NCBI GenBank assembly: GCA_025355505.1
Contig: JANXZM010000043.1
Location: forward strand, 1 to 38,329
Reading direction: 5' to 3'
DNA from: Acidobacteriaceae bacterium
GTDB lineage: Bacteria; Acidobacteriota; Terriglobia; Terriglobales; Acidobacteriaceae
Length of the DNA stretch: 38,329 nucleotides
Within the stretch, counting starts at the first letter, position 1, and every line of letters starts with the position of its first letter. The notes beneath the pieces are model-generated. The model searched no databases. It was not told the origin of the DNA and saw nothing but the letters and a program-made list of their open reading frames with translations. Positions 229 to 35,526 of the stretch are shown here, in pieces. Both the position numbers and the translations under genes were made by a program.

Positions 229-2055
229 ATGATCGTCCCAGCCATACGCACTCTGCTCCTTTCAGCCTTGCTGGCGCTTCCACTGGCGGCAGCAAATGAT
301 GCCACGCGCAACAGCGAGTCACCCGACATTCCCAAGCGGCACAACGAAGCGACGGTAGCGCAACTCCAGGCGGAGATGGCTTCCGGCAAACTTACCTCAG
401 AGTCATTGACCAAGGAATATATTGCCCGCATCATCGCGCTGGACCAGAATGGTCCGGGGGTCAACTCGGTGATCGAGCTGAACCCTGAAGCGCTCGATAT
501 GGCGCGCCACGCCGACCAACTGCGCAGGCACGGAATCCTGCTGGGGCCTTTGCACGGAATTCCGGTACTGCTTAAGGACAATGTCGAGACCGGCGACATG
601 ATGCAGACTACCGCGGGCTCGTTCGCGCTGGTTGGAAAGCCGGCGCTTACGGACTCCACGGTCGTCGCCAACCTGCGCGCGGGCGGCGCGGTGATTCTGG
701 GAAAGACGAACCTGTCGGAGTGGGCCAACTTCCGCTCCTTCGAATCCATCAGCGGGTGGTCGGGCCGGGGCGGGCAGACGAACAATCCCTATGGCATCGA
801 TCGCAATCCCTGCGGCTCCAGTGCCGGCTCGGGTGCTGCGGTGTCGGCGAACTTTGCCGCAGTGTCGTTCGGGACGGAGACCGATGGCAGCATTGTCTGC
901 CCGGCCAACGCGAATGGCGTCGTTGGCCTGAAGCCGACGGTGGGCCTCACCAGCCGTGCGGGTATCGTGCCACTCTCGCACACGCAAGACACTTTCGGTC
1001 CGCATGGGCGCACGGTGGCCGACGCGGCGGTGGCGCTGGGCGTGGTGCAGAGCCGCACCTTCGACGGCCGCGATCCTGCGACCGGCGGCGTTCCCCTGGG
1101 ATGGCAGGGCCGTTTCTCGCGCCCCACGAACATCCCCACCGACTACACAAAATTCCTCAACCCGAACGGGCTCCAGGGCGCGATCCTCGGCGTGACCAGG
1201 GCGGGACTGAACGGATTCGACCCGTTCGTGCCGACGCCGCCGCTGGTGCTGGACCAATTCGAGGCTGCGCTGAACGCAATGAGTGCGGCGGGTGCCACGC
1301 TTGTCGACCTCGACGCCGCGGGTTTCACGTTCCCTTCAGCCGACGGCGAGTTACTGGTGCTGTGCTTCGATTTCAGGAATGACCTTAAGGCTTATTTTCA
1401 CACGCGCGTGGGGGTACCCATGGCGGGCAAGACCTTAACCGATGCCATCGCTTTCAACAACGCCCACGCCGATGCCGAGATGCCGTTTTTTAGTCAGGAC
1501 ATTTGGGATCTCACCGATTCGCTGGCGCCGGGACCCGACGACCCGCAGCCGGTCTTCGGTGGGATGACCTATAACCAGGCGCTGGCCATCGACCAGAACG
1601 CCGGGGTCAACGGCATCGACGCGGCGCTGAGCCAGTTCGGTCTCGACGCGGTGGTCAGCGCCACCGACAACCCTGCCTGGGCCACCGACCTGCTCTACGG
1701 CGATCACTTCATTTTCGGTACGTCGGGCCTGGCGGCTGCGCCCGGTTATCCCATTGTGCAGGTGCCCGCGGGCATGGTGTTCGGCGTGCCACTCGGCGTC
1801 AGCTTCTTCGGAACGGCGTTCAGTGAGCCCATGCTCATCAAGCTCGCCTCCGGGTTCGAGGCGGTCACCCAGGCGCGCGCACACAACCTGCCCACGTTCG
1901 CGCTGACGGTGCCGTTCGACCACATCTCCGGCTCGACGCTGAAGCCGCCGGCTCAGCGCAACGCGCCGCCCAAGGTCAGCCGAAGCCGGCCGTCGCCGCC
2001 GTCAAATGCAACCAGACAGCCAGGGAAAGAACTCAGGCGGCCGCACCATTTGTGA
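229..2055 (+). CDS. Exported amidase-signature family hydrolase
   Basis: This is an amidase-signature (AS) family enzyme that hydrolyses C-N amide bonds; the substrate cannot be told from sequence. The 608-aa protein starts with a signal peptide (hydrophobic residues about 8-21, ending LAAAND), so it should act outside the cytoplasm. The Ser-cisSer-Lys triad fits K117 (GIPVLLKD), S197 (CGSSAGSG) and S221 (TETDGSI), with family-like spacing. The core runs to about residue 565, and the last ~45 residues are a Pro/Ser/Arg-rich tail without clear homology. The ATG is well supported by AGGAGG about 7 nt upstream. It is monocistronic and sits directly beside an IS end. Exported relatives are often annotated as amidase or glutamyl-tRNA amidotransferase subunit A-like, but nothing suggests a role in tRNA amidation here. 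Confidence 0.9.
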   Translation: MIVPAIRTLLLSALLALPLAAANDATRNSESPDIPKRHNEATVAQLQAEMASGKLTSESLTKEYIARIIALDQNGPGVNSVIELNPEALDMARHADQLRRHGILLGPLHGIPVLLKDNVETGDMMQTTAGSFALVGKPALTDSTVVANLRAGGAVILGKTNLSEWANFRSFESISGWSGRGGQTNNPYGIDRNPCGSSAGSGAAVSANFAAVSFGTETDGSIVCPANANGVVGLKPTVGLTSRAGIVPLSHTQDTFGPHGRTVADAAVALGVVQSRTFDGRDPATGGVPLGWQGRFSRPTNIPTDYTKFLNPNGLQGAILGVTRAGLNGFDPFVPTPPLVLDQFEAALNAMSAAGATLVDLDAAGFTFPSADGELLVLCFDFRNDLKAYFHTRVGVPMAGKTLTDAIAFNNAHADAEMPFFSQDIWDLTDSLAPGPDDPQPVFGGMTYNQALAIDQNAGVNGIDAALSQFGLDAVVSATDNPAWATDLLYGDHFIFGTSGLAAAPGYPIVQVPAGMVFGVPLGVSFFGTAFSEPMLIKLASGFEAVTQARAHNLPTFALTVPFDHISGSTLKPPAQRNAPPKVSRSRPSPPSNATRQPGKELRRPHHL

Positions 2056-2112: not shown

Positions 2113-2346
2113 CCCGTCCAACCATGAGGAGGGATAGGAGCGTGCGCGATTCAATGGTGCACTTCCTGACATCGGGGCGGGGGAAGCTTCTTGGACGAAG
2201 CTCCCGGGAGAGCCGAAACTCGTGTCCGAATCGATCCCTGTTGTGAAATCGCGTTTTCAATATTGACGTCTGCTCACGCACGAACCCGCTACTTTATTCC
2301 CAATCATCGCCCGGTCCTGCTACTTTCAAGGGACGGTGACCGCAGA

Positions 2347-2378
2347 GCGTGAGAGGCGGCAAGCCGTGTCTCTACGGG
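2347..2378. repeat. GAGACG-type palindromic repeat (degenerate copy)
   Basis: GAGAGGCGGCAAGCCGTGTC with the following TCTAC matches, in the reverse orientation, the repeats at 10477-10503 and 13840-13900 (GGCAAGCC core flanked by GAGA and TCTCTAC). It lies just upstream of the transglutaminase-like gene. Confidence 0.6.
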
Positions 2379-2388
2379 AAAAATTGGG

Positions 2389-3003
2389 ATGAAGAACGCC
2401 AATTCCTGGGGCCTAACCCCCGCCGAACTTCGCAAGCTGCGTGGATTGAAGACTCCGCATGGGATTCAACGCTTGCTTGACGACATGCCTTATCACCTTG
2501 CGGACAGTGCCTGGTCTCCGCGACGGGTGCTGCGGGAAAACACTTCGCATTGCTACGAGGGGGCGCTGTTTGCGGCGGCGGCGCTGCGCGCCATTGGATA
2601 TCCTCCGCTGATTCTCGATCTGGAAGCTGAGCACGATACCGATCACGTGATTGCCGTGTACCGCGTCGATGGACATTGGGGTGCGGTGGCTAAATCGAAT
2701 TACACTGGGTGCCGCTATCGCGAGCCAGTGTATCGTTCGCTGCGTGAACTGGCGCTTAGTTATTTCGACACTTACTTCAATCTGAGGGGAGAGCGAACGC
2801 TGCGGACTTTTTCGCGGCCGGTGCACATGCGGCGTTTCGATGCTCTTCAGTGGATGACTTCCGAGCAGCCAGTGTGGTTTGTGGCGGAGTACCTGCTGGA
2901 GATTTCTCATACCCCACTGATCACTCGCGGGCAGGCTCAGCGGCTGCATCGGCTGGATGGACGATCGTTCCGAGCGGGGTGTCTGGAGCGAGCGGACAAG
3001 TAG
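2389..3003 (+). CDS. Transglutaminase-like protein of unknown substrate
   Basis: This 204-aa protein has no signal peptide. The pattern fits a compact transglutaminase/cysteine-peptidase-like fold. A candidate catalytic Cys lies in NTSHCYEGA near residue 54, followed by an Ala-rich helix, a His in TDHVIAVYR near residue 88, and a polar residue in AKSNYTG near residue 104. The next segment, YREPVYRSLRELALSYF, is well formed and suggests a conserved family. The reaction could be hydrolysis or transamidation of a peptide or small molecule; I infer only the fold class. There is no strong Shine-Dalgarno sequence ahead of the ATG at 2389. The gene stands alone between two long intergenic stretches. 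Confidence 0.75.
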   Translation: MKNANSWGLTPAELRKLRGLKTPHGIQRLLDDMPYHLADSAWSPRRVLRENTSHCYEGALFAAAALRAIGYPPLILDLEAEHDTDHVIAVYRVDGHWGAVAKSNYTGCRYREPVYRSLRELALSYFDTYFNLRGERTLRTFSRPVHMRRFDALQWMTSEQPVWFVAEYLLEISHTPLITRGQAQRLHRLDGRSFRAGCLERADK

Positions 3004-3643
3004 GGGCAGGGCCTAAAATCATTCACCACCAATGACATTGAAGGTGCACGAAGGAAACCCCTCGAAAGCCGATGTGCAATGTCTCTACCACGAACCAGTA
3101 AGATGGCTTTTTATCTTCGAAAACAGATCAGGCTACAGGAGCCGGTGCGAACGAGAAGTGACGGGGCTCACGCGGTGCGGGTGATGCGAGCACGTGTAAC
3201 GGGGGACGTTGAGCTGGAAGGGAAGGCAAATCGGACCGATCTTCGAGTTGGAGGGATGGAGCGAGTTGTAGCATTTTCAGCGGCTTGCGCGCCCGTCCAA
3301 GTACTTCCGTACCGTCTCTAGTACCTTAGTTACCCCAACGAGGGTGACCGGTGTCCAATTTGCTTATTGACTACCACCCATAGTGGTACTCGCACGCTCC
3401 AATGCTAGCAGTAGAGATTAACCGCAAGTCCACTTTTTGCGAAATCCAGAAAAACCCCATAAAACCCAAAGAAACCGGGAGATTCCCGTGGAGAGGTCCT
3501 CGGTTCCGGTTGAGATATGCTCAGCACACCAAAACACACTCGAACGCGTTTGAATCGAGGACTTGGTTCTCCCAAATTCGGTCAGCGTTGCCGGAAAGAA
3601 AAGGCGGGGCTGAGAAGCGGGTTCTGTGGGAGAGAGAAACGTT
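3004..3643. other. Long intergenic region upstream of the pilus operon
   Basis: About 640 bases hold no gene I can support. An 80-codon open frame (3079-3321) has Arg/Val-rich, feature-poor sequence and no ribosome-binding site. A perfect 6-bp inverted repeat, TACCAC-N5-GTGGTA, lies at 3372-3388. The A-rich segment around 3440-3475 and the following sequence are the likely place for the promoter of the HTH-pilMNOPQ operon, but I cannot point to a clear -35/-10 pair. Confidence 0.5.
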
Positions 3644-9327: not shown

Positions 9328-10476
9328 ATGCACCGCACGGCTATGCACCCGACTGCCATGGACCACGGTGGACGCCTGCGTCGACTCCAAGCTTCGCTGT
9401 TGAGCCACAAGCTTGACTGCCTGCTGATTGCGCACCTTCCCAATGTTCACTATCTCTGCGGCTTTACGGGCAGTGCAGCTGCTTTGGTGGTCTCGGAGCG
9501 TGGTTCCATCCTTTTTACTGACGGACGCTACCGCACCCAGGCAAAAGAGGAAGTAAAGGGCGCGAGCGGCAATACTGTGAACGTTGTCATCGCTCGCAAG
9601 TCTCCGCTGGTGGCGGCGGCGGAGTGGCTGGCCAGGCAGCGCAGGAGTTCGACGCCGGCATCATTGACGCCAACGGCGTTGGGCATCGAGCCGGAGTCGA
9701 TCACCGCTGGCATGCGCGACCGGCTCGCGTCTGTGCTGAAAGGGAAGGCGCGCCTGCGGTCCGCGCCACCGCTGGTCGAGCAAGCGCGCATGGTGAAGGA
9801 CGCTGCCGAGATCCAGCGCATTCGGCGAGCGGTTGAACTCGGTGCCAGTCTTTTCCAGGTAGCATGCAAGAAAATACGGCCGGGCGTGAGTGAGGTGGAA
9901 GTCGCCGCCGCCATGGAATACGAGGCTCGTTGTGCGGGTGCCGAAGGCATGTCCTTCCCGACCATACTCGCTTCCGGAACCCGGTCGGCGATTGTGCATG
10001 GCCGAGCGTCGGGCGCGCGCATTCCGCGGCGCGGGTTCGTGGTCTGTGATTTTGGTGTTATACTCGCCGATTATTGTTCGGATCGCACGCGAACGGTGCA
10101 TGTCGGACAGCCGTCGGGAGACGCTCGACGGCTGTATGAAGCCGTGTTGGAAGCGCAGCAGGCTGCCATTGCAGCGGTTGGTCCGGGCGTGACTGCCGCC
10201 GAAGTGGATGGCGCCGCGCGTCGTGTGCTTCGCAAGCGGAAACTCGCCCGGTACTTCACCCATTCGACCGGGCATGGTTTAGGATTGGAGATACACGAGG
10301 CACCAAGGCTGGCAGCGGGACAAACCCAGATGCTGGAGCCGGGGATGGTGATTACGATTGAGCCTGGCGCGTACATCCCTGGGAAGTGGGGTGTGCGGAT
10401 CGAAGATGTGGTGCTGGTTACGTCTTCGGGCTGCGAAGTGCTGACGCCCGCGGATAAAGAACTGGTGATTATTTAG
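9328..10476 (+). CDS. Xaa-Pro peptidase (M24B family aminopeptidase P-like)
   Basis: This is a cytoplasmic dimetal peptidase that removes residues N-terminal to proline or splits Xaa-Pro dipeptides. The 382-aa protein has a creatinase N-like domain (about 10-145) and a pita-bread catalytic domain (about 150-380). All five metal ligands are visible: Asp in VVCDFG, Asp in CSDRTRT, His in TGHGLGLEIH, Glu in TIEPGAY and Glu in RIEDVV. Length and the YLCGFTGSAAALVV start fit the YqhT/PepQ-type short enzymes. Three in-frame ATGs (9328, 9343, 9358) compete. I keep the first because of the -10 element just upstream. In Acidobacteria, as in Bacillus, the gene lies next to accB. Confidence 0.9.
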   Translation: MHRTAMHPTAMDHGGRLRRLQASLLSHKLDCLLIAHLPNVHYLCGFTGSAAALVVSERGSILFTDGRYRTQAKEEVKGASGNTVNVVIARKSPLVAAAEWLARQRRSSTPASLTPTALGIEPESITAGMRDRLASVLKGKARLRSAPPLVEQARMVKDAAEIQRIRRAVELGASLFQVACKKIRPGVSEVEVAAAMEYEARCAGAEGMSFPTILASGTRSAIVHGRASGARIPRRGFVVCDFGVILADYCSDRTRTVHVGQPSGDARRLYEAVLEAQQAAIAAVGPGVTAAEVDGAARRVLRKRKLARYFTHSTGHGLGLEIHEAPRLAAGQTQMLEPGMVITIEPGAYIPGKWGVRIEDVVLVTSSGCEVLTPADKELVII

Positions 10477-10503
10477 CAGAGACGAGGCTTGCCGCGTCTC
10501 TAC
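10477..10503. repeat. GAGACG-type palindromic repeat
   Basis: GAGACGAGGC-TT-GCCGCGTCTC (10480-10501) is a 10-bp inverted repeat with one mismatch, flanked by CA and TAC. It fills most of the gap between the peptidase stop and accB. The same unit recurs at 13840-13868 and, degenerate, at 2347-2378. Confidence 0.8.
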
Positions 10504-10531
10504 ACACGAAACGCGGGACCCGCCCTTATCC

Positions 10532-11002
10532 ATGAATCAAAAAGAGCTGAGAGAGCTTATCGAGTTCTTAGTCGAAAAAGACATTGCCGAGTTTGAACTG
10601 GAGCGCGGCGATGTCAAGGTGAAGATCAAGCGCGCCACCGAGCCGTTGCCCGCGCCAGAATCGCGCTATGGCGCGGTTCACCCCACGCCGGTTCCTGCTT
10701 CCGCGACCGGCCGGGTCGATCTGGCAGCGAACGCCGGCGTGTCTGAACCTGAGGAAGTCTTGCACATTGTGAAGTCGCCGATCGTGGGCACCTTTTACGA
10801 ATCGCCGTCGCCCGGATCCCCGCCCTTTGCCAAAGTCGGCGATCCCCTGGAAGTCGGTCAGGTGTTGTGCATTGTTGAAGCGATGAAGCTGATGAATGAA
10901 ATCGAATGCGACGTGGCGGGAGAGTTGGTCAAGATGTTGGTCGCGAACGGCCAGCCCATCGAGTACGGTCAGGAACTGTTCGCCGTCCGACCGGTAAAGT
11001 AA
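10532..11002 (+). CDS. accB: Biotin carboxyl carrier protein of acetyl-CoA carboxylase
   Basis: AccB carries biotin between the carboxylase and carboxyltransferase half-reactions that make malonyl-CoA for fatty acid synthesis. The 156-aa length is typical. The N-terminal helix-rich segment is followed by a Pro/Ala linker (about 36-75) and a biotinyl domain (about 78-155). The biotin attachment motif is EAMKLM with K119, and the thumb segment is FYESPSPGSPPF. It lies 85 bp upstream of accC and is almost certainly co-transcribed with it. No clear Shine-Dalgarno sequence precedes the ATG. Confidence 0.96.
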   Translation: MNQKELRELIEFLVEKDIAEFELERGDVKVKIKRATEPLPAPESRYGAVHPTPVPASATGRVDLAANAGVSEPEEVLHIVKSPIVGTFYESPSPGSPPFAKVGDPLEVGQVLCIVEAMKLMNEIECDVAGELVKMLVANGQPIEYGQELFAVRPVK

Positions 11003-11087
11003 TGGATGTTGGTTCGACTGACGTTAGCTCGAATAGCGCCCGAGCGCCCAGGGCAGATCATCCAAGGCAGATCATTCCAGGCACATC

Positions 11088-12449
11088 ATGTTCAAGAAAA
11101 TTCTGGTAGCGAATCGCGGAGAGATTGCGCTGCGCGTCATTTGCGCATGCAAGGAACTCGGCATCCGCTCGGTCGCCATTTACAGTGAGGCGGACCGGAA
11201 TTCGCTCCACGTGCGCTTTGCCGATGAAGCGATTTGCATTGGGCCTCCGCAACTGGCGCTGAGTTATCTCAACATCCCCGCCGTCATCAGCGCGGCTGAG
11301 ATCGCGAACGTGGACGCCATCCATCCCGGTTATGGCCTGCTTTCGGAAAACGCCAACTTCGCCGAAGTCTGCGAAGCCTGTCACATCAAATTTATTGGGC
11401 CGACTCCTGACGTCATCCGGCTCATGGGCGAAAAAGAAAAGGCTCGCGCCGCCATGAAGCAGTACGGTGTGCCGATCCTTCCCGGTTCGGACGGCGTGAT
11501 CGCCTCCGATGGAGAAGCTTGCGAGTGGGCGCGGACGGTTGGTTTCCCGGTTATCCTCAAGGCCACGGCGGGCGGTGGCGGGCGGGGCATGCGCATTGTT
11601 CGTAAGGAAGATGAATTGCCCGCGCTTTACCGTCAGGCGCAGTCGGAGGCCTCGGCCGCCTTCGGCAATGGCGATCTCTATCTGGAAAAGTATGTCGAGA
11701 ACCCGCGCCACATCGAATTCCAGGTGTTGGCCGACGAACACGGCAACGTGGTCAGTCTGGGAGAACGCGAGTGCTCGATTCAGCGGCGGCATCAGAAGTT
11801 GCTCGAAGAGTCGCCGTCGGTGCGGGTCACGCCCGAGCTGCGCAAGGAAATTGGAGACGTGATCAGTAAGACGCTCAGCCAGGTCGGCTACCACAATGCC
11901 GGCACCATCGAATTCCTCATGGACCAGGATAAGCGGCTGTATTTCATCGAGATGAACACGCGCATCCAGGTGGAGCATCCGGTCACCGAAATGGTCACCG
12001 ACGTGGACCTGGTGAAAAGTCAGCTCATGATCGCCGCGGGCGCAAAGCTTTCCGATGTGTTGCAAGGCCCCATCGTGCATCGCGGACACGCGATCGAGTG
12101 CCGCATCAATGCCGAGCATCCGGAGAAGTTCACGCCTTCGGCGGGCAAGATCACGACCTTCAACCCCCCGGGAGGGACGGGCGTGCGCATCGACACGGCC
12201 GCCTATGCCGAAGGCACGATTCCTCCATACTATGACTCGCTCATTGCCAAGCTGGTGGTGCGTGGCAAGGATCGCAGCGAAGCTATCTCGCGCATGAGTC
12301 GGGCCCTGGAAATGTTTATCGTGGAAGGAATCTACACGACGATTCCGCTGCACCGGCGAATTTTGGCGGACCCGGATTTCCGTGCGGGCAATTTCGATAC
12401 CGGGTTCATTGAGAGATTCCTGGCGAAAAAATCGGAGACGGCGGGGTAG
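11088..12449 (+). CDS. accC: Biotin carboxylase subunit of acetyl-CoA carboxylase
   Basis: AccC carboxylates the biotin on AccB with ATP and bicarbonate. The 453-aa protein matches family length and shows all landmarks. These are the N-terminal [18 protein letters not shown], the ATP-grasp glycine loop [14 protein letters not shown] (about residue 158), the [15 protein letters not shown] segment, the catalytic region [16 protein letters not shown] (about 287-302) and the C-terminal [18 protein letters not shown]. It follows accB. The carboxyltransferase genes accA and accD are not in the window. Confidence 0.97.
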
Positions 12450-12501
12450 GGACTGGTATCAAGCATCGTGAGCGCCGGCGCGTCGTGAGAATGCAAGGCT
12501 A

Positions 12502-13197
12502 ATGACCGACATCGCAAAGACAATCAACGATCTTCCGCACTTTAAGGTGTCCGCCATACGGAAAGGCGAGGGCGGTGACAGCGGGCGCGCTGACTTCGAG
12601 CTCGCCGGTGTATTTGACCGAACCGAAGGCGTGAACGAAGGTCGATGCTGGCTGCTTCTCCCTCGAAAAGACGTTCTGATTGATTTCACCGGTGAGCTAA
12701 AATCTCTTGAGGCCGGTACGGGTGCCGCACTCTATCAAACCTCCGAAGAGCCTATGCCCGACATGGTTGGTTTGGCATTTGCCTATCTTGGTCCGCAGTG
12801 GGCGCCGTATCACGTCTGGATGGTCACTGAGCCGAAGTGGAGATGGGATAGAAAGTTGTTCCACGCGGTCGACGCGAATGCCAGGAAAATAGAGGGGAAC
12901 GGTGTCTCCATTGTTGACGGACAGGAAGTAAAAGAATGGATCGAGATCAAGAAGATCGGGCAAGAGAGTCACCTTTCGAGATATTATCCGGTCTTTCCTG
13001 ACGGGAAAACTACTCTTCCGCCGATCGGTCCCGACGGAGTCGTCAGAGGTGGATGGGGTCATGTTCACTGTGAAATTTGCGATGCGCACATAGTTGCTGA
13101 AAGCTACGGATACATAGATCCGGGGGAACACTGGGTCTGCGAGGCATGTTACGACAAATATGTCGTAAGTCTTGACCTCTCGTTTATCAAGACATGA
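12502..13197 (+). CDS. Unrecognised protein with C-terminal zinc-ribbon-like motif
   Basis: I do not recognise this 231-aa protein. It has no signal peptide or membrane helix. Residues 1-175 are acidic, mixed alpha/beta and Trp-rich (GPQWAPYHVWMVTEPKWRW around 97-115). The C-terminus has CEIC (about residue 194) and CEAC (about residue 215), a likely four-Cys zinc ribbon. DNA composition appears somewhat more AT-rich than the flanking accC and thiE. Its stop overlaps the thiE start by 4 nt (ATGA at 13194-13197), so it is translationally coupled to thiE. No Shine-Dalgarno is evident before the ATG at 12502. It may be a late insertion between accC and thiE; a function in thiamine synthesis is not supported by any motif. 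Confidence 0.75.
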   Translation: MTDIAKTINDLPHFKVSAIRKGEGGDSGRADFELAGVFDRTEGVNEGRCWLLLPRKDVLIDFTGELKSLEAGTGAALYQTSEEPMPDMVGLAFAYLGPQWAPYHVWMVTEPKWRWDRKLFHAVDANARKIEGNGVSIVDGQEVKEWIEIKKIGQESHLSRYYPVFPDGKTTLPPIGPDGVVRGGWGHVHCEICDAHIVAESYGYIDPGEHWVCEACYDKYVVSLDLSFIKT

Positions 13198-13808
13198 ATC
13201 CACTTCCCCGGCTATATGCGATTCTCGACGCTGCGTATTTCTCCGATGCCGGGGGAATGTTCACCGCCGCCGAGGAACTCACGTCTGCCGGCTGCACCCT
13301 GCTCCAATACCGCAACAAGTCGGGCAGCGCGCGCCGCATGCTCGACGAGGCGCGGGAACTCAGAGCGCGCCTCGGAGCAGGCGTCAAGCTCATCATGAAC
13401 GACCGTGCCGATCTCTGTCTGGCCGCTGGCTTCGACGGGTTACATGTTGGCCAGGATGATCTCTCGGCTCAGTCGGCGCGGCGTATCCTTGGCCCCGCTC
13501 GCTGGCTCGGAGTATCAACGCACAATCCCGAGCAACTTGCGGAAGCCGATCAAACTTCCGCCGACTATCTCGCCATCGGCCCCGTCTTTGCGACCTCCAG
13601 TAAGGCCAATCCTGATCCTGTCGTCGGACTCGAAGGCGTTCGTCGGGCAAGGGAACTGACGCGCAAGCCTCTGGTTGCGATCGGCGGCATTACTCGTGCC
13701 AACTCCCGCTCCGTTATCGATGCCGGAGCCGACGCCGTGGCGGTGATATCCGACTTGATACGGGAGCCACGCAAATCAGCAGAGGAATTTTTGAGGGTTC
13801 TGGGGTAA
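13194..13808 (+). CDS. thiE: Thiamine-phosphate synthase
   Basis: ThiE joins HMP-pyrophosphate and the thiazole phosphate to form thiamine monophosphate. The 204-aa protein is a full-length TIM barrel. Family motifs are LLQYRNKSG (about residue 38), IMNDRADLCLAAGFDGLHVGQDDL (about 66-89), LGVSTHN, YLAIGPVFATSSKANPDPVVG (about 125-146) and the phosphate-binding AIGGIT...AGADAVAVISDL. Its start overlaps the upstream Zn-ribbon gene by 4 nt. The thiazole synthase gene thiG lies about 21 kb away on the other strand, so the pathway is scattered. No THI-box riboswitch was recognised upstream. Confidence 0.94.
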   Translation: MNPLPRLYAILDAAYFSDAGGMFTAAEELTSAGCTLLQYRNKSGSARRMLDEARELRARLGAGVKLIMNDRADLCLAAGFDGLHVGQDDLSAQSARRILGPARWLGVSTHNPEQLAEADQTSADYLAIGPVFATSSKANPDPVVGLEGVRRARELTRKPLVAIGGITRANSRSVIDAGADAVAVISDLIREPRKSAEEFLRVLG

Positions 13809-13839
13809 AGTGGAAAGCTCTTGCGGCGGATACGATCCC

Positions 13840-13900
13840 GTAGAGACGCGGCTTGCCGCGTCTCACGCAGCGGACGAAACGGGGCAAGCCCTGTCTCTAC
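13840..13900. repeat. Two GAGACG-type palindromic repeats in opposite orientation
   Basis: A perfect 10-bp inverted repeat GAGACGCGGC-TT-GCCGCGTCTC lies at 13843-13864. A second, inverted and degenerate unit (GGGGCAAGCCCTGTCTCTAC) follows at 13880-13899. The pair lies between thiE and the first permease gene and could also fold as one larger structure through GTAGAGAC and GTCTCTAC. Confidence 0.8.
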
Positions 13901-13934: not shown

Positions 13935-15488
13935 GTGAGCACCAACGTTCAACCCCCAGTTCCAGCTTCGAGCGCCAGCGATTGGGCGCGGCATACCCAT
14001 CAGGACAAAGAGCTAGTCAAAGGTTTCGGCCTCACCAGCGCGACCATGCTGGTGATGGGATCCATGATCGGCTCGGGCATCTTTATTGTGTCCGCTGAGA
14101 TTTCCCGTGAGGTGACTTCGCCGGCGCTGCTGATTGGCGCCTGGCTCATCACTGGCTTTCTCACCATTGTCGGCGCGCTCACCTACGGCGAACTGGCGGC
14201 GATGATGCCTCGTGCGGGCGGACAGTATGTCTATCTGCGCGAGTCGCTCGGTCCACTTTGGGGATTTCTCTACGGCTGGACGCTGTTTCTCGTCATTCAG
14301 ACCGGCACAATCGCTGCTGTGGGCGTGGCTTTCGGCAAATTCCTCGGAATCTTCTGGCCGGCAATCTCCTCCAGTCATTGGATCGTCCACCTGTGGAAAG
14401 TGCCGAAGTTTGCAGTTGGCCCGATGATGCTCGGTGGCATGGATGTTGGACTGAACACGCAGAACTTTGTCGCCATCCTGATAGTGATTGCGCTCTCCAT
14501 CATCAACATTTTTGGCGTGAAGACGGGCGCTATCATCCAGAACATTTTTACCACCGCGAAAGTTTCCGCACTGCTGGGCCTGGTGCTCTTCGGAATCTTT
14601 CTTGGCCGGAATGCGCACGCAGTGGCCGCTAACTTCGGCGCCAACTTCTGGAACAATGCGGGCCTTGGCACGATGCATGACGTCGGCGGGGGCGTGCTCG
14701 TCTCGGCGCTTACCGCGCTCGCTATCGCTCAGGTCGGATCGCTGTTTTCCGCCGATGCCTGGAATAACGTTACCTTCACGGCGGGCGAGGTGAAAAACCC
14801 CAGCCGCAATCTCCCCCTGTCGCTGGCGATTGGTACCGGCGTTGTAATCGCGCTCTATATTGCGTGCAACTTTATTTATCTGAGCGCGCTGCCGCTCGTG
14901 GGCAGTCCGACGGGAACGACGCTGCTGGAACGCGGAATTCAGTATGCCAGCGAAGATCGCGTCGCTACGGCCGTGATGACGCAGATGTTTGGTTCCGCTG
15001 GTGGAGCGCTGATGGCGGTCGCCATCATGATTTCCGGCTTTGGCTGCTGCAACGGCTTGATTCTCTCCGGTGCCCGCGTTTACTACGCCATGGCCAAAGA
15101 TGGCCTGTTCTTTCGCAGCGTTGCCAAACTGCATCCCGGCTACAAGACGCCCGCCGTTTCCCTGATGGTGCAGATGGTTTGGACCTGCGTCCTCTGCATC
15201 TCCGGCAGTTACGGCCAGCTTCTCGACTACATTATTTTTGCGGTGCTGGTTTTTTACGTACTCACCATTTTCGGACTTTTTGTCCTGCGCCGCACTCACC
15301 CCGAGGCCGAGCGTCCGTACAAAGCCATCGGATACCCCGTTCTGCCCGCGATCTATATTGTGATTGCTTTGTTTATTGACGTGGTGCTGTTACGCTACAA
15401 ACCGCAATACACGTGGCCGGGACTGTTCATCGTGCTGCTCGGCATTCCGGTGTACTATATCTGGCGGCCGCGAACTGCGAGGGCTTAG
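13935..15488 (+). CDS. APC-family amino acid permease (first of two)
   Basis: An inner-membrane amino acid transporter of the amino acid-polyamine-organocation superfamily. The 517-aa protein has about 12 hydrophobic segments. The first holds the substrate-binding motif SMIGSGIFIVSAEI (about residues 41-54). The next segments, TYGELAAMMPRAGGQYVYLRESLG, resemble the SteT/LAT-type exchangers. The substrate cannot be assigned. Two unusual loops with Asn/Phe-rich sequence lie between helices 5-7. The GTG start at 13935 is taken from AGGAGG at 13926-13931; the spacing of 3 nt is shorter than usual, but no better start is in frame. It lies 22 bp upstream of a second permease, so they likely form an operon. 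Confidence 0.92.
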   Translation: MSTNVQPPVPASSASDWARHTHQDKELVKGFGLTSATMLVMGSMIGSGIFIVSAEISREVTSPALLIGAWLITGFLTIVGALTYGELAAMMPRAGGQYVYLRESLGPLWGFLYGWTLFLVIQTGTIAAVGVAFGKFLGIFWPAISSSHWIVHLWKVPKFAVGPMMLGGMDVGLNTQNFVAILIVIALSIINIFGVKTGAIIQNIFTTAKVSALLGLVLFGIFLGRNAHAVAANFGANFWNNAGLGTMHDVGGGVLVSALTALAIAQVGSLFSADAWNNVTFTAGEVKNPSRNLPLSLAIGTGVVIALYIACNFIYLSALPLVGSPTGTTLLERGIQYASEDRVATAVMTQMFGSAGGALMAVAIMISGFGCCNGLILSGARVYYAMAKDGLFFRSVAKLHPGYKTPAVSLMVQMVWTCVLCISGSYGQLLDYIIFAVLVFYVLTIFGLFVLRRTHPEAERPYKAIGYPVLPAIYIVIALFIDVVLLRYKPQYTWPGLFIVLLGIPVYYIWRPRTARA

Positions 15489-17074: not shown

Positions 17075-17103
17075 TCGGGAAGGGCGGGGACGCCCGCCCG
17101 TCG
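17075..17103. repeat. GC-rich palindromic repeat between convergent genes
   Basis: GGGCGGGGACGCCCGCCCG, flanked by CGTC and CG, forms a short GC-rich hairpin. The GGGCGGGGACGCCC core matches the second half of the repeat at 35505-35524. It occupies the gap between the convergent permease and SDR genes. Confidence 0.5.
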
Positions 17104-34590: not shown

Positions 34591-34594
34591 GCCG

Positions 34595-34623
34595 TGGAGC
34601 GACGGGCGTCTCGCCCGTCCACC
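34595..34623. repeat. GACGGGCG-type palindromic repeat
   Basis: GGAGC followed by GACGGGCG-TCT-CGCCCGTC (34601-34619) and CACC. The unit TGGAGCGACGGGCGTCTCG recurs almost identically at 35478, on the other side of thiG. Confidence 0.85.
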
Positions 34624-35437: not shown

Positions 35438-35477
35438 GGCCTTATTGTACGGCTCCAGGGAACTGGGAACCAGGGAG

Positions 35478-35526
35478 TGGAGCGACGGGCGTCTCGTCCG
35501 TCCAGCCGGGCGGGGACGCCCGGCAC
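35478..35526. repeat. Double GACGGGCG-type palindromic repeat
   Basis: GACGGGCG-TCT-CGTCCGTC (35484-35502) is followed directly by GCCGGGCG-GGGA-CGCCCGGC (35505-35524). The first unit is nearly identical to 34595-34623, and the second resembles 17075-17103. The element sits upstream of thiG, just after the acyl-CoA synthetase stop. Confidence 0.85.

Follow-up and report, generated by a model that had tools for sequence, protein, structure and literature searches.

A stretch of 38,329 nucleotides from an Acidobacteriaceae bacterium (GenBank assembly GCA_025355505.1, contig JANXZM010000043.1, positions 1 to 38,329), called the window in the following, carries related palindromes next to the starts and ends of several genes. 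What are these palindromes, and how did they come to sit there? A preliminary description of the window had likened them to repetitive extragenic palindromes (REPs), and this comparison is supported by a copy number in excess of chance, by intergenic placement and by the presence, in related genomes, of a gene for a Y1 transposase of the REP-associated tyrosine transposase (RAYT) kind flanked by the same palindrome. We conclude, with a probability of roughly 87%, that the palindromes represent a GTAG-tagged REP family spread as a heterodimer by a Y1 HUH transposase of the RAYT group 4/subclass 2.4 type.

That the palindromes recur in the window was borne out with the underlying 22-mer, which at up to three mismatches gives five matches at three places when both strands are counted and none in 100 shuffles. 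The copy at 13843-13864 consists of perfect 10-bp arms enclosing TT, the copy at 10479-10500 has one mismatch and lies one base before the position first reported for it (10480-10501), and the copy at 2351-2372 matches on the minus strand with two mismatches. A fourth, inverted unit placed near 13880-13899 was recovered as 13876-13900 (-) once the foot was included. The unit is longer than the GAGACG/CGTCTC-armed palindrome first described and adds a GTAG foot to a 10-bp hairpin. The shared core GGCTTGCC emphasized in the preliminary description is unremarkable when taken alone (four matches versus a mean of 2.2, a number reached by 19 of the 100 shuffles); it is the foot, GTAGAGAC, that stands out (five matches versus 0.35 expected, shuffle maximum two). 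Four copies of the resulting 25-base unit GTAGAGACG[C/G]GGCTTGCC[C/G]CGTCTC are found in the window with zero to two mismatches, and two of these indeed stand head-to-head, with an 11-nt gap between them:

2351-2375, minus strand: single REP copy GTAGAGACACGGCTTGCCGCCTCTC, 13 nt before the predicted gene 2389-3003
10476-10503, no strand assigned: single degenerate 'double-foot' copy GCAGAGACGAGGCTTGCCGCGTCTCTAC (25-base unit at 10476-10500, plus strand)
13840-13864, plus strand: REP arm A, exact consensus GTAGAGACGCGGCTTGCCGCGTCTC (GTAG foot, 10-bp stem)
13865-13875, no strand assigned: 11-nt spacer of the head-to-head dimer
13876-13900, minus strand: REP arm B, GTAGAGACAGGGCTTGCCCCGTTTC, two mismatches, GTAG foot outward

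The copy at 10476 overlaps the stop codon of the peptidase-like gene (9328-10476) by a single base and ends with CTAC at 10503. A lone GTAGAGAC foot at 3081-3088 (-) was not scored as a REP copy at up to five mismatches and is possibly a decayed copy. When the window was searched against Rfam at gathering thresholds, a tRNA was the sole match.

Across the window's own genome (an assembly of 4.16 Mb in 119 contigs, 96% complete), the 22-mer at up to three mismatches yields 108 forward and 106 reverse matches, far above chance with a control of zero, and 20 places are exact. Since a near-palindromic copy is counted on both strands, the number of places is smaller than that of matches. At up to two mismatches, the tagged 25-mer gives 66 + 70 = 136 matches in this genome, with a reversed control of zero. 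Among the 61 genomes scanned with it, all 24 of the genus carry the unit (1 to 345 matches each), as does one of 13 genomes from the family outside the genus (two matches); the 24 genomes that represent the remainder of order and class gave no match, and controls were zero in each group. High copy number and extragenic location, which are traits of GTAG REPs, are both found for the window repeat. A parallel expansion with another stem is seen in the genome of Acidobacteria bacterium isolate gp1 AA112 (G437, locus L228): GTAGAGACG-N10-CGTCTC has 104 + 98 matches there, and CAGCATGCTG is the core in most of the matches listed.

The architecture of the unit was derived from 80 distinct copies of the own genome, a set in which exact copies of arm A are too frequent, since 30 of the loci had been retrieved as the best matches to this arm. 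An exact GTAG start is present in 61 of the 80 units, and 60 have the asymmetric loop CTTG. The consensus stem comprises 10 bp with a TT loop, or 9 bp with a CTTG loop, which falls within the range of GTAG REPs (6-13 bp, short loop), and every stem pair is of the Watson-Crick type in 69 to 79 of the 80 units. Most variable is stem pair 7, formed by positions 10 and 19: it is C-G in 53 units and G-C in 18, with seven single changes and two unpaired double changes, and the 18 compensated double changes compare with 5.3 expected. These positions were also inspected in a sample of 438 kb (the window and 20 further stretches of 20 kb each), where they read C-G in 29 and G-C in 12 of 51 copies, equivalent to 29 arms A and 12 arms B. 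An inverse partner within 80 nt (up to nine mismatches) accompanies 37 of the 80 units on the hairpin side, compared with three on the foot side. All 11 close pairs in the sample are oriented head-to-head and always differ at position 10 (nine C with G, two C with A). The same is true for 17 distinct dimers of the own genome, which are all head-to-head, combine C with G in 15 cases and C with A in two, and have spacers of 2 to 33 nt; neither A-A nor B-B homodimers were found among the dimers extracted from own-genome loci. The probable mobile unit would be a REPIN-like head-to-head heterodimer of about 60 bp with its GTAG feet outward, laid out as arm A (stem GAGACGCGGC), a short spacer and arm B (stem GAGACGGGGC). 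For REPINs, reportedly introduced in 2011 from Pseudomonas and differing in sequence and RAYT type, an inverted REP pair is likewise said to be the mobile unit.

Which enzyme could move such a unit? A search with the Pfam family Y1_Tnp retrieved eight matches in the own genome and 113 in the genus. None of the eight own-genome Y1 genes has the window palindrome adjoining it; several of them lie at contig ends, where the flanks are cut short. A single REP match with eight mismatches near the own-genome locus L032, obtained in a looser scan, was taken as chance. Two of four own-genome Y1 proteins scanned pass the NCBIfam cut-off for REP-associated tyrosine transposases, and the other two, scanned as domain fragments, match below it. 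With these enzymes at hand, the palindromes could in principle be mobilized in trans by another RAYT of the own genome. We consider this unlikely. The window REP does not occur within 500 nt of any of the 69 Y1 loci examined out of the 113 in the genus (nearest 510 nt; the 69 leave out two G023 matches and matches outside the listing), and many genus Y1/RAYT loci (L096-L155, L031-L038) are flanked on both sides by inverted repeats of several other, distinct families, e.g., GGGGTGCGCCACTTCTCGCGCTTTTCGAGAAGTGGCCT in L105.

A cognate transposase was found only after a profile had been built from RAYTs residing beside the same foot in other phyla. Scanning a collection of named genomes for GTAGAGACG-N10-CGTCTCTAC returned at least 118 stretches, mostly from Bacteroidota and Cyanobacteria and also from Acidobacteria, Planctomycetes, Chloroflexi and others. 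In the 80 stretches inspected, the inner ten bases vary between records and are mostly self-complementary. A RAYT-like frame is present in 12 of the 118 listed stretches; in 11 of them, the GTAGAGACG foot lies inside the matched region or within 250 nt of it, and in the remaining stretch (L192, with a RAYT of another type) 115 nt separate the palindrome from the end of the frame. RAYT frames from Balneolota, Bacteroidota and Cyanobacteria (L164, L188, L202, L220) even hold the GTAGAGACG palindrome in frame, read, for example, as ETHGRASLQS. Six of the RAYT-like frames beside the foot made up the search profile.

With this profile, strong matches were obtained in three of the 24 genus genomes (E 1e-49, 7e-42 and 1e-32) and weaker ones (E 2e-9 to 0.01) in 14 more, the latter including RAYTs of the other kind. 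In all three genomes, the gene sits between copies of the window REP whose feet point outward. G016 has a frame of 179 amino acids without stops between REPs at 1445-1469 (+) and 2120-2144 (-) of locus L275. The frame in G004 contains one in-frame stop and is bordered by a REP dimer on one side and a REP on the other, with a further REP inside the gene (L274, 1713-1737 within the match 1501-2028). G003 harbors a shortened frame with one in-frame stop between two REPs. A REP inside the transposase gene was seen neither in G016 nor in G003. A Y1 HUH transposase gene of group 4 flanked by the same REP, i.e., the arrangement known as a REPtron, thus exists in three of 24 genus genomes, and none was found in the window's own genome. 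With Pfam Y1_Tnp (PF01797; cut-off 23), the G016 protein reaches 17.9 bits, and with NCBIfam (cut-off 80) it reaches 40.6 bits, below threshold in both cases. All seven members of the alignment termed A2 match PF01797 at E <= 0.01, and in the PDB, E. coli TnpArep (4er8, E = 3.9e-5) is the sole match of the profile at E <= 1. The cognate transposase resembles subclass 2.4/RAYT group 4 (PMC6006769). The three RAYT carriers have 119, 218 and 345 REP matches, compared with 1 to 242 in the 21 other genomes (p = 0.009).

The association between this transposase type and GTAG hairpins extends to the class, where the cognate RAYT type was detected at E <= 1e-15 in 32 of 399 genomes. GTAG hairpins (stem of at least 8 bp) lie within 250 nt of 31 out of 32 group-4 loci examined, three from the genus and 29 from the class, the miss being L333. 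Beside other Y1 loci, they occur in one case out of 69 (p = 1e-23 for the contrast), and this single locus, L038 in the own genome, features a different, G+C-rich hairpin. The foot is GTAGGGGC at 27 of the 29 class loci, GTAGGGCC at L314 and GTAGAGACG at L332. At L315, a locus with a GTAGGGGC-type RAYT, GTAGAGACG hairpins are also present at 1332-1357 and 2148-2173, so that two REP types occur at one gene. In a midpoint-rooted tree of 42 RAYTs, the 14 rows found beside GTAGAGACG, which stem from several phyla, make up one side of a branch with support of 97/98, and the RAYTs of the genus group with Planktothrix at 98/95. It should be kept in mind that rows from other phyla were chosen because of their GTAGAGACG foot and genus and class rows were not, that L314 is counted in the GGGC group, that L332 has a very long branch and that L276 was left out as too short. 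Tentatively, and with somewhat less than an even chance of being right, group-4 RAYTs may read a two-state foot code, with GTAG-AGACG and GTAG-GGGC clades and an inner stem that drifts freely; the AGACG clade would have crossed phyla with its repeat, entering the genus beside a cyanobacterial relative, and REP populations would outlive the transposase.

Placement relative to genes was analysed in the 438-kb sample, with genes called by our own codon-bias script (coding fraction 0.84); the 20 stretches were drawn from contigs listed with hits, and copy density in them is biased for this reason. The sample contains 51 copies and the reversed sequence none. Of these copies, 42 are clear of genes, six touch a gene edge and three lie inside predicted genes. 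The statement that the palindromes are always intergenic therefore comes close without being strictly true: after merging into 40 independent loci, 37 are mostly intergenic, while a fraction of 0.163 is expected (p = 4.5e-26). The 36 loci with clear neighbours fall into 25 tandem, six divergent and five convergent spacers, near the length-weighted background of 64%, 22% and 14%, respectively. In the tandem spacers, 23 of 25 loci are closer to the 3' end of the upstream gene (p = 2e-5). In four of the 51 copies, the TAG of the GTAG foot serves as a stop codon, the gene running four bases into the foot.

This proximity to 3' ends could also be expected for host-selected RNA elements, either terminators or mRNA-stabilizing hairpins downstream of genes, whose copy number would arise from function and not from mobility. 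In line with such a role, the window dimer has a favourable RNA fold (-36.7 kcal/mol, z -4.6); as DNA, its z is -4.1. Convergent spacers show no enrichment (five of 36 loci versus 14% of spacer length), which led us to drop the terminator idea, and a 3' bias would also result if insertions hitting promoters were removed. For RNA elements in general, it is difficult to see why the repeat should flank transposase genes and differ in presence between orthologous spacers, and we hold this explanation to be quite improbable. For the spacer that separates thiE (13194-13808) from a permease-like gene (13935-15488), 20 of the 24 genus genomes yielded a sequence with both flanks. Four of them (G000, G003, G010 and G007) have the dimer, G006 has a degenerate copy, and no copy at up to six mismatches was found in the remaining 15. 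Among the empty spacers, some are short (G009 with 43 bases, G017 with 55 and G018 with 62) and others contain different repeats. Across the loci of this spacer (L339-L360), the repeats vary between genomes, e.g., GTAGGGACAGCCGCCCTCGGCTGTCC in G004 and G011. The same patchwork emerged for the 22 loci of the spacer between the peptidase-like gene and a biotin carrier gene (10476-10532), with copies at varying distances from the stop codon. The idea that the palindromes are elements of another, non-RAYT transposon, similar to miniature inverted-repeat transposable elements, might draw on the lack of a detected cognate RAYT in the own genome and of a strong RAYT match in 21 of 24 genus genomes, but it is very improbable in view of the three cognate genus RAYT genes that sit between repeat copies and of the GTAG hairpins near nearly all group-4 loci, RAYT/Y1 being the class surveyed.

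Returning to the GTAG-tagged REP family spread by a group 4/subclass 2.4 RAYT, we infer recognition, cutting, a single-stranded intermediate and the direction of movement as follows. Most likely, the Y1 HUH transposase recognizes the GTAG foot together with the hairpin on single-stranded DNA; it would then cut and rejoin at the foot and spread the dimer into intergenic spacers. Single copies would be decayed or deleted dimers, and double-foot copies may have arisen by deletion between the arms. As the own genome yielded no such transposase, the copies residing there were probably spread by one that has since been lost or is missing from the assembly.

Several observations weigh against this explanation. 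The best own-genome match to the G016 protein has an E of 0.38, so a cognate RAYT was not found there, and the profile's match in the same genome (E 0.0049) is another type of RAYT. The REP-rich genomes G010 (242 matches) and G008 (168 matches) likewise lack a strong profile match. Thirteen of the 51 sample copies match the consensus exactly, an uneasy fit with a long-lost transposase. The link between RAYT presence and copy number rests on three carriers, two of which come from assemblies with a contamination estimated at 6-7%. The comparison of spacers does not by itself separate gain from loss, and transposition as such is deduced from sequence.

The window contains other palindromes. A second one, GTGGAGCGACGGGCGTCTCG[C/T]CCGTCCA, is present in two near-identical copies at 34594-34621 and 35477-35504, and its stem GACGGGCG-N2-6-CGCCCGTC gives 42 matches in the 438-kb sample (both strands, up to one mismatch). 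A third, GGCGGGGACGCCCG, is located at 17083-17096 and 35509-35522 and has 22 sample matches at up to one mismatch.

A literature search with the letters of the palindrome returned nothing related among the matches listed, and no description of REPs from this genus was found in the limited library searched. The match between RAYT clade and REP foot is possibly new, and so, possibly, is an abundant repeat unaccompanied by a RAYT of its own. In poorly annotated bacteria, it becomes possible to assign abundant palindromes to a transposase that scores under standard profile cut-offs. Given the link between RAYT clade and REP foot, recognition specificity can be probed by swapping, and REP populations without a detectable RAYT offer a natural test of how long repeats persist without the enzyme.

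How does the repeat compare with known systems? GTAG REPs with head-to-head dimers, heterodimers and TAG stop codons have been described (Di Nocera et al. 2013, PMC3733652). As far as the available part of that paper shows, the window repeat shares with them the GTAG foot, a stem of 6-13 bp closed by a short loop, a large number of mostly intergenic copies, head-to-head dimers with feet outward, which in some published families are exclusively heterodimers, and the use of the foot TAG as a stop codon. The repeat is placed among GTAG REPs by these shared traits and not by a consensus match to the 24 published families, and in the same part of the paper Acidobacteria are mentioned solely for transposases with long terminal inverted repeats unrelated to GTAG repeats. 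For subclass 2.4/RAYT group 4, the available part of PMC6006769 reports hosts among Cyanobacteria, Bacteroidetes and scattered phyla, long and double-foot REPs, REPs inside the gene and two REP types named within the subclass. Of the motifs NH[IFV]H, WQ and YIxNNP listed for subclass 2.4, the G016 protein has NHVH and WQ, with YIRRNP in place of YIxNNP. The repeat and its RAYTs in the genus also have in common with this group that REPs border the gene, that double-foot REPs occur and that a REP can lie within the gene. They differ from it, again as far as that part of the paper goes, in the Y motif of the G016 protein, in a host genus belonging to the Acidobacteriota, in an intact protein that falls under the Pfam and NCBIfam cut-offs and in a gene present in three of 24 genomes versus a REP present in all 24.

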